From positions 248,001-312,000 of the forward strand of contig JARVKI010000038.1 of the NCBI GenBank assembly GCA_036674765.1: DNA of 64,000 nucleotides, given 5' to 3'. Source of the stretch: Seiridium cupressi (taxonomy: Eukaryota > Ascomycota > Sordariomycetes > Amphisphaeriales > Sporocadaceae). The first letter of the stretch is position 1; every line of letters begins with the position of its first letter. This document shows, in pieces, positions 25,708 to 61,712 of this stretch. A model generated the notes under the pieces. It was not told the origin of the DNA and made no database searches. It saw only the letters and a program-made list of their open reading frames with translations. Both the position numbers and the translations under genes were made by a program.

Positions 25708-25709
25708 TG

Positions 25710-25794
25710 CATCGCTCCTCGGACTCGAACCGAGAATCTCTCGCTTATCTAATCGACTAGGAGGCGAGCGAGTTAACCATTTCTCTAGAGCGAC
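25710..25794 (-). tRNA. tRNA-Arg(CCT) with canonical intron
   Basis: Read on the minus strand. Acceptor stem GTCGCTC pairs with GAGCGAT (one G-T at the first pair). The D arm is GAG/CTC. The anticodon stem is CTCGC/GCGAG with loop CTCCTA..A, so the anticodon is CCT and reads AGG codons. The T arm is CTCGG-TTCGAGT-CCGAG. About 12 nt follow position 37, the standard place for nuclear tRNA introns. Discriminator base G. Box B (GGTTCGAGTCC) is perfect. Unlike the two tRNA-Pro genes in this window, it has no second insertion. Confidence 0.93.
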
Positions 25795-51608: not shown

Positions 51609-51757
51609 GCGCTGTTGGTCTAGCGGTATGATTGTAAGCCGAATAACCACTCATTGTTCCACTCGAATAACTTACTAACAAAGTCTTCAATAGCTCGCTT
51701 AGGGTCCACCCTAATCACTCTTGCGAGAGGTCCCCGGTTCGATCCCGGGATAGCGCC
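51609..51757 (+). tRNA. tRNA-Pro(AGG) with two introns, one spliceosomal-like
   Basis: Exons 51609-51633, 51694-51704 and 51722-51757 give a 72-nt tRNA. The acceptor is GCGCTGT/ATAGCGC (all seven paired, one G-T). The D arm is GTCT-AGCGGTA-TGAT, as in other fungal tRNA-Pro. The anticodon stem is CTCGC/GCGAG with loop TTAGGG..T, anticodon AGG. The T arm is CCCGG-TTCGATC-CCGGG, discriminator C. Box A (TGGTCTAGCGG) and box B (GGTTCGATCCC) are intact. Intron 2 (51705-51721, 17 nt) is at the standard 37/38 site, and its ACCCTAA can pair with the TTAGGGT of the anticodon loop, as usual. Intron 1 (51634-51693, 60 nt) is at 26/27, a place where nuclear tRNAs do not normally have introns. It starts GTAAGC, has TACTAAC and ends TAG. 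Confidence 0.92.
51634..51693 (+). other. Spliceosomal-type intron inside tRNA-Pro (copy 1)
   Basis: 60 nt between tRNA positions 26 and 27. Donor GTAAGC, branch word TACTAAC at 51673-51679, acceptor TAG at 51691-51693; the branch A is 15 nt before the end. It lies between box A and box B. These signals match protein-gene introns in this window (for example CACTAAC in 5755-5810 and 20782-20833) and no bulge-helix-bulge context is apparent at its ends. Confidence 0.85.
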
Positions 51758-51773
51758 TAACGTTATCAAACCA

Positions 51774-51779
51774 TTTTTT
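51774..51779 (+). terminator. Pol III terminator of tRNA-Pro copy 1
   Basis: Run of six T, 17 bases past the discriminator base; another T run follows. Confidence 0.75.
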
Positions 51780-61568: not shown

Positions 61569-61712
61569 GCCCGGATGGTCTAGCGGTATGATTGTAAGCA
61601 AATTCCCCTGTCAGTTCTCCATCGAAACCTGATACTAACAAGTCACAGCGCGCTTAGGGCTCACCCTAAACAAGCTTGCGCGAGGTCCCCGGTTCAATCC
61701 CGGGTTCGGGCC
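61569..61712 (+). tRNA. tRNA-Pro(AGG) with two introns, one spliceosomal-like (copy 2)
   Basis: Exons 61569-61593, 61649-61659 and 61677-61712 give a 72-nt tRNA. The acceptor is GCCCGGA/TTCGGGC, fully paired yet different from copy 1 at three pairs. The D arm is identical to copy 1. The anticodon stem is CGCGC/GCGCG, also different and paired; the loop is TTAGGG..T, anticodon AGG. The T arm is CCCGG-TTCAATC-CCGGG, discriminator C. Boxes A and B are intact. Intron 2 (61660-61676) is 17 nt at 37/38 and again contains ACCCTAA complementary to the loop. Intron 1 (61594-61648) is 55 nt at 26/27 with GTAAGC, TACTAAC and CAG. Without removal of intron 1 the anticodon stem is displaced by 55 nt from the D arm. 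Confidence 0.92.
61594..61648 (+). other. Spliceosomal-type intron inside tRNA-Pro (copy 2)
   Basis: 55 nt at the same tRNA position (26/27) as copy 1. Donor GTAAGC, TACTAAC at 61633-61639, acceptor CAG at 61646-61648; the branch A is 10 nt before the end. The body differs from copy 1 except for the splice signals, a TCGAA word and ACTAACAA(A)GTC. Confidence 0.85.

Follow-up and report, generated by a model that had tools for sequence, protein, structure and literature searches.

In a filamentous ascomycete, at least seven nuclear tRNA genes carry, besides the ordinary 37/38 tRNA intron, a second insert with the ends and branch-site motif of an mRNA intron, and these inserts are very probably U2-type spliceosomal introns lying within functional tRNA genes. 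The elements directly observed are the exact boundaries of the inserts, the intact mature tRNAs that remain when they are removed, the splice signals, the constraint on the genes, the recurrence of the arrangement and an intron of the same kind in the U6 snRNA gene. From these we infer that the inserts are removed in vivo by the spliceosome and that the resulting tRNAs are charged and used.

Structure of the doubly interrupted tRNA-Pro(AGG) gene

The genome analysed comprises 45.36 Mb in 228 contigs, and the HET, Fungal_trans_2 and GATA domains of its proteins (Pfam) point to a filamentous ascomycete. The window, the whole 64,000-nt stretch of DNA under study, forms part of contig C38, and all comparisons were made within this one genome. 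The tRNA-Pro(AGG) gene at 51609-51757 is interrupted twice, by 60 nt and by 17 nt, and is reduced to 72 nt when both interruptions are taken out. Its 5' exon (51609..51633, + strand), which comprises the 5' strand of the acceptor stem, the D arm, nucleotide 26 and the A box, is identical to those of paralogues on C59 and C16, and is followed at position 26/27 by the 60-nt mRNA-type intron (51634..51693, + strand; GTAAGC...TACTAAC...AATAG), the predicted branch A of which lies 15 nt 5' of the 3' splice site. The middle exon (51694..51704, + strand) contains the 5' strand of the anticodon stem and the loop with the anticodon AGG, and is separated by an ordinary 17-nt 37/38 tRNA intron (51705..51721, + strand; TCCACCCTAATCACTCT), in which ACCCTAA is complementary to the anticodon-loop TTAGGGT, from the 3' exon (51722..51757, + strand), comprising the 3' strand of the anticodon stem, the variable loop, the T arm with the B box and the 3' strand of the acceptor stem. 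A T6 run, the likely Pol III terminator, is found 16 nt past the end of the tRNA (51774..51779, + strand).

An intronless-at-26/27 Pro(AGG) paralogue (L008; C16:21630-21718, - strand), which retains a 37/38 intron of like kind (ARAGORN), lacks exactly these 60 nt and reads GATT/CTCG across the empty site (here and below the slash marks the junction), so that the boundaries of the insert are established independently of any motif. The earlier note had placed an insert with GTAAGC, TACTAAC and a terminal AG at 26/27 and had held that its removal restores the tRNA exactly; the first statement is correct to the base and the second is borne out by the paralogue. The 72-nt tRNA with an ordinary 17-nt 37/38 intron that it described is likewise recovered: ARAGORN calls tRNA-Pro(AGG) with the 17-nt intron once the 60 nt are excised, whereas the unspliced gene is mis-called as Val with a 76-nt 'intron' when introns are allowed. 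Neither Rfam at its gathering threshold nor ARAGORN without introns reports the window gene; the intronless paralogue is missed by both as well, and the insert is therefore not the sole cause. The only window tRNA reported by Rfam and by ARAGORN without introns is a tRNA-Arg(CCT) at 25709-25794 (- strand).

Interrupted genes of four isotypes and their empty-site paralogues

The phenomenon extends beyond the single gene of the earlier note. Among the 87 nuclear tRNA-like places listed, at least seven genes with an mRNA-type insert were found, representing four isotypes and three insert positions: three Pro(AGG) genes at 26/27, two Phe(GAA) genes at 30/31, and one Met and one Lys(TTT) gene at 46/47. 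A DNA search of the genome with the whole window gene (Pro1) yielded three further Pro(AGG) genes, namely the intronless copy on C16, a gene with a 59-nt insert in the same place (Pro2; C59:114257-114404), and a second window gene with a different acceptor stem and both introns (Pro3; 61569..61712, + strand), the mRNA-type intron of which occupies 55 nt at 26/27 (61594..61648, + strand; GTAAGC...TACTAAC...CACAG). Pro3 is located 10 kb from the first window gene and is unreported by Rfam or by ARAGORN without introns.

The tRNA-Met(CAT) gene (C13:124207-124363), found by tRNA covariance search, combines a 37/38 intron with a 52-nt insert (GTTCGT...TACTAAC...AATAG) placed after AAGG at 46/47, where two paralogues (L109 and L110) read AAGG/TCG uninterrupted. 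The tRNA-Lys(TTT) gene (C26:60226-60383) was a partial match in the same search and a whole match in Rfam at E 0.01; its 59-nt insert at 46/47 (GTAAGC...GACTAAC...TTCAG) was bounded by comparison with Lys(CTT) genes. Two tRNA-Phe(GAA) genes, found by pattern search (C28:413189-413334 and C50:189348-189493), each contain a 55-nt insert (GTGAGT...ACTAAC...AG) at 30/31, inside the anticodon stem, and a third Phe gene with the same exons (L124; C9:176481-176572) is without it, its empty site reading CCAG/ACTG. The single mismatch in the Phe acceptor stem is common to this intronless paralogue. Overall, the insert is carried by three of the four Pro(AGG) genes found and by two of the three Phe genes found with that body, and a 37/38 intron is present in all seven genes (ARAGORN for Pro; by eye for Phe, Met and Lys).

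Once the inserts are removed, ARAGORN calls Pro(AGG) for the three Pro genes and also calls tRNAs for the two Phe genes and the Met and Lys genes, mis-typed as Tyr, Tyr, His and Glu, respectively. This mis-typing is attributed to the 37/38 intron register, and these four genes were typed from their intronless paralogues and the Lys(CTT) genes. Rfam at E 0.01 matched the Met and Lys genes and left unmatched the Pro and Phe genes given to it and the intronless L008; since the latter is missed as well, the silence of Rfam on Pro says nothing about the insert. With introns allowed, ARAGORN typed the intronless Pro gene correctly and mis-typed or missed the interrupted ones. Genes of this kind are thus easily overlooked.

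The 87 places were compiled by hand, three of their coordinates are approximate and one (L068) represents a T arm only. For ten of the 87 the sole evidence is a DNA match of 74-102 bases, a span too short to include a second insert. As 63 of 1321 candidates of the tRNA search were scored and 100 of 396 matches to the B-box pattern were listed, the true number of tRNA-like places is greater than 87. A tRNA-like locus with approximately 85 extra bases and repeated GTTGGACTTCG (L079; C2:634383-634539) was excluded from the count; a single-excision search there gave eight solutions with four of five anticodon-arm pairs, none of them GT-AG, and a search for a GT-AG excision together with a 37/38 excision gave none; no excision tried restored the anticodon arm. 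Inspection by eye of L122 (C85:47133), L118 (C46:5110) and L116 (C40:96501) revealed no mRNA-type insert, the last being an ordinary Ile gene with a 37/38 intron. A tRNA-Glu(CTC)-like locus (L059; C39:322765-322836) has a poorly paired anticodon stem and is perhaps a pseudogene. One 22-base word spanning exon and intron had no match in the genome_contigs and viral_contigs collections, neither of which is a fungal genome collection.

Splice signals of the inserts

All seven inserts, 52-60 nt in length, follow the pattern GT...ACTAAC...AG; their branch A precedes the 3' end by 10-15 nt, and their donors are GTAAGC (four), GTGAGT (two) and GTTCGT (one, Met). The GT-AG ends of the Pro, Phe and Met inserts are bounded by empty-site paralogues, the Met and Lys junctions being shiftable by one base with the product unchanged, so that GT-AG picked the register in these two. 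The ACTAAC motif occurs in all five introns that were found without a motif search (Met, Lys, U6, Pro2 and Pro3), of which Met, Lys and U6 came from covariance models and Pro2 and Pro3 from similarity to the window gene and so are not independent of it; both Phe genes were found by the ACTAAC motif itself, which also helped to draw attention to the window gene. Among 511,548 window segments of 52, 55, 59 or 60 nt on both strands, 1,850 begin with GT and end with AG, and six also have ACTAAC near the end (1.2e-5). Raw counts of the patterns were lower than those of reversed-pattern controls (12 vs 35, 14 vs 63 and 37 vs 124), and the identification of the inserts therefore rests on tRNA structure.

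A heuristic search for mRNA introns in the window returned 17 candidates, eight of them scoring 6 or more, and these likely mRNA introns resemble the tRNA inserts in length and donors. The donors of the eight best are GTAAGT, GTGAGT, GTACGT, GTAAGC, GTAGGT and GTACGA; the weak Met donor, GTTCGT, is absent among them. The branch site is looser in the likely mRNA introns, with ACTAAC in one of the eight best-scoring candidates. The inserts of Met and Lys and the U6 intron are preceded by AAGG and those of Phe by CAG, both resembling proto-splice sites, while the Pro inserts follow GATT, which is no proto-splice site. Insertion after AAGG or CAG suggests that the Met, Lys, U6 and Phe introns may have been gained at proto-splice sites, for example by reverse splicing, an origin that the Pro sites do not fit.

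Constraint on the genes and alternative explanations

Signs of selection were sought in diverged pairs of interrupted paralogues, with p values that assume independent alignment columns and exon identities that gene conversion between copies may have raised: Pro1 and Pro2 differ at 0 of 72 mature sites vs 15 of 62 insert columns (Fisher p 3e-6) and the two Phe genes at 0 of 72 vs 6 of 55 (p 0.006), while within the insert Pro1 and Pro2 differ at 0 of 14 splice-signal sites vs 15 of 48 other columns (p 0.014) and Pro1 and Pro3 at 0 of 14 vs 21 of 48 (p 0.001). All seven interrupted genes have A and B boxes, and in each a run of T4-T6 begins 5-16 nt downstream.

These observations bear on the possibility that the interrupted genes are pseudogenes, in which an intron has entered dispensable tRNA copies that are dead or retained by chance. 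A review (PMC4090602) notes that unusual insertions in eukaryotic tRNA genes mostly affect a single gene out of a large synonymous set, and that these are presumed pseudogenes. Intact intronless copies for Pro, Phe and Met exist in the same genome, and, as six of the seven interrupted genes have an intronless synonymous copy, a dead interrupted gene would be tolerated. Such an explanation is nevertheless unlikely, given that the mature parts are identical between paralogues whose inserts drift around preserved splice signals, that the promoter boxes and T-runs are intact, and that the insert occurs in most of the Pro(AGG) and Phe genes found and in the only Lys(TTT) gene found with a Lys-like body.

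The inserts might, alternatively, be tRNA introns at odd positions that the splicing endonuclease cuts through a bulge-helix-bulge, as in archaea and red algae, and the nearby positions 25/26, 30/31 and 45/46 are indeed used in archaea (PMC4090602). A relaxed bulge-helix-bulge was found at the exact junctions of none of the seven inserts; with a slack of +-2 nt it was found in two of seven (Pro1 and Pro2), in 449 of 2000 random junctions and in 15 of 26 ordinary 37/38 introns. The inserts thus come close to the rate of random sites, but with so few of the positive controls detected the power of the test is modest. A fixed-register form of the test did not separate the inserts from the 37/38 introns. 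Endonuclease cleavage would also leave the conserved GT, ACTAAC and AG unexplained, and it is a very improbable explanation. Equally improbable is inefficient removal of the inserts, or removal only from Pol II read-through, with the genes serving as regulatory or silent RNAs: the unspliced 149-nt window RNA does keep its acceptor, anticodon and T stems in the predicted minimum-energy fold, but the T-runs close downstream, the intact internal promoter boxes and the constraint on the mature tRNA argue against it.

The U6 intron and comparison with known systems

The U6 snRNA gene of the same genome (L107; C33:71722) contains a 50-nt intron (C33:71786-71835; AAGG/GTAAGC..TACTAAC..CTAAG/ATGACACGC), and two U6-like copies (L106 and L108) are uninterrupted and degenerate. 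The precedent to which the earlier note had appealed, mRNA-type introns in fungal U6 genes, is thereby present in this very genome, and the shared signals make it a model for the spliceosome acting on RNA made by Pol III. The tRNA inserts resemble fungal U6 introns in occupying a Pol III gene and in being short GT-AG introns with a strong branch site; they differ in that the hosts are tRNAs of four isotypes, interrupted at three positions and containing a second, endonuclease-type intron. The spliceosomal introns of fungal U3 snoRNA also differ in their host; a U3 covariance search of the genome gave no match, but its controls gave none either, so that it carries no weight. Nuclear rRNA genes of some fungi contain mRNA-type introns, which are likewise spliceosomal and in a non-mRNA host, but that host is a Pol I gene and not a tRNA.

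Canonical 37/38 introns, one of which accompanies each of the seven inserts, are cut by the endonuclease, occupy another position and are without GT-AG or branch-site signals. In archaea, Cyanidioschyzon and nucleomorphs, too, tRNA introns lie away from 37/38, in some genes in twos or threes, but the non-canonical introns of archaea and C. merolae are ascribed to the splicing endonuclease. For those of nucleomorphs a review of tRNA introns gives no known mode of splicing and, in the available part, describes no mRNA splice signals; its main text contains no word beginning 'spliceosom' (PMC4090602). Among small structured RNAs, frequent interruption is stated to have been known for U3 and U6 only (PMC5832005), and the available part of PMC11782384 names no spliceosomal intron in a tRNA. 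The earlier note knew of no described case, and none was found among the literature matches listed, which consisted of titles and the starts of abstracts and were drawn mostly from non-subscription full text. On this comparison the intron type is rated as known and the host gene class, tRNA, as apparently new.

Proposed maturation and the decoding of AAA

The claim of the earlier note that a nuclear tRNA requires both splicing machineries is supported, as far as sequence analysis can carry it, by the empty site, the intact tRNA with its T-run, the kept signals, the recurrence and the U6 intron. In the proposed pathway, Pol III, directed by the internal A and B boxes and stopping at the T-run, would transcribe the whole gene into a single precursor that contains both introns. 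Within the nucleus the spliceosome would excise the GT-AG intron of 52-60 nt, after which the tRNA splicing endonuclease and a ligase would remove the 37/38 intron to give a standard tRNA. The order of steps is modelled on yeast, in which the tRNA splicing endonuclease works outside the nucleus. The spliceosomal step probably comes first, as the endonuclease needs a folded anticodon stem; the GT-AG intron splits this stem in Phe and abuts it in Pro. Pol III transcripts are without the cap, which helps in the recruitment of U1, but its absence is no bar to splicing, as the U6 gene shows.

The pattern AGAGCGNNNGACTTTTA has one exact match, the interrupted Lys(TTT) gene on C26, and ten places with one mismatch, of which six are Lys(CTT) genes and the other four lie on C46, C11, C58 and C87; among the places read, which include the one of these four on C46, the sole Lys(TTT) gene found with a Lys-like body carries the insert. 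A further locus (L043; C41:354628-354718) is called Lys(TTT) by ARAGORN, but its body is Asn/Arg-like and not that of a Lys tRNA. Six Pfam-supported reading frames in the window use 30 AAA and 56 AAG codons. A CUU anticodon cannot read AAA, so that, with AAA in use, removal of the Lys intron would be vital if there is no other Lys(UUU) gene. The C26 gene is likely to be the only one, and its splicing is thus likely essential. It is somewhat more probable than not that AAA decoding depends on the spliceosome in this fungus, that several of its tRNAs need both machineries and that introns have colonised tRNA genes repeatedly.

The introns of tRNAs and of mRNAs are the textbook pair of separate splicing worlds. 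A tRNA passing through both would mean that tRNA precursors made by Pol III, which have no cap, can be spliced by the spliceosome, and the empty sites within the same genome point to apparently recent intron gains. If tRNAs are spliced by both machineries, translation capacity would be coupled to splicing, and pre-mRNA splicing would directly serve the tRNA pool.
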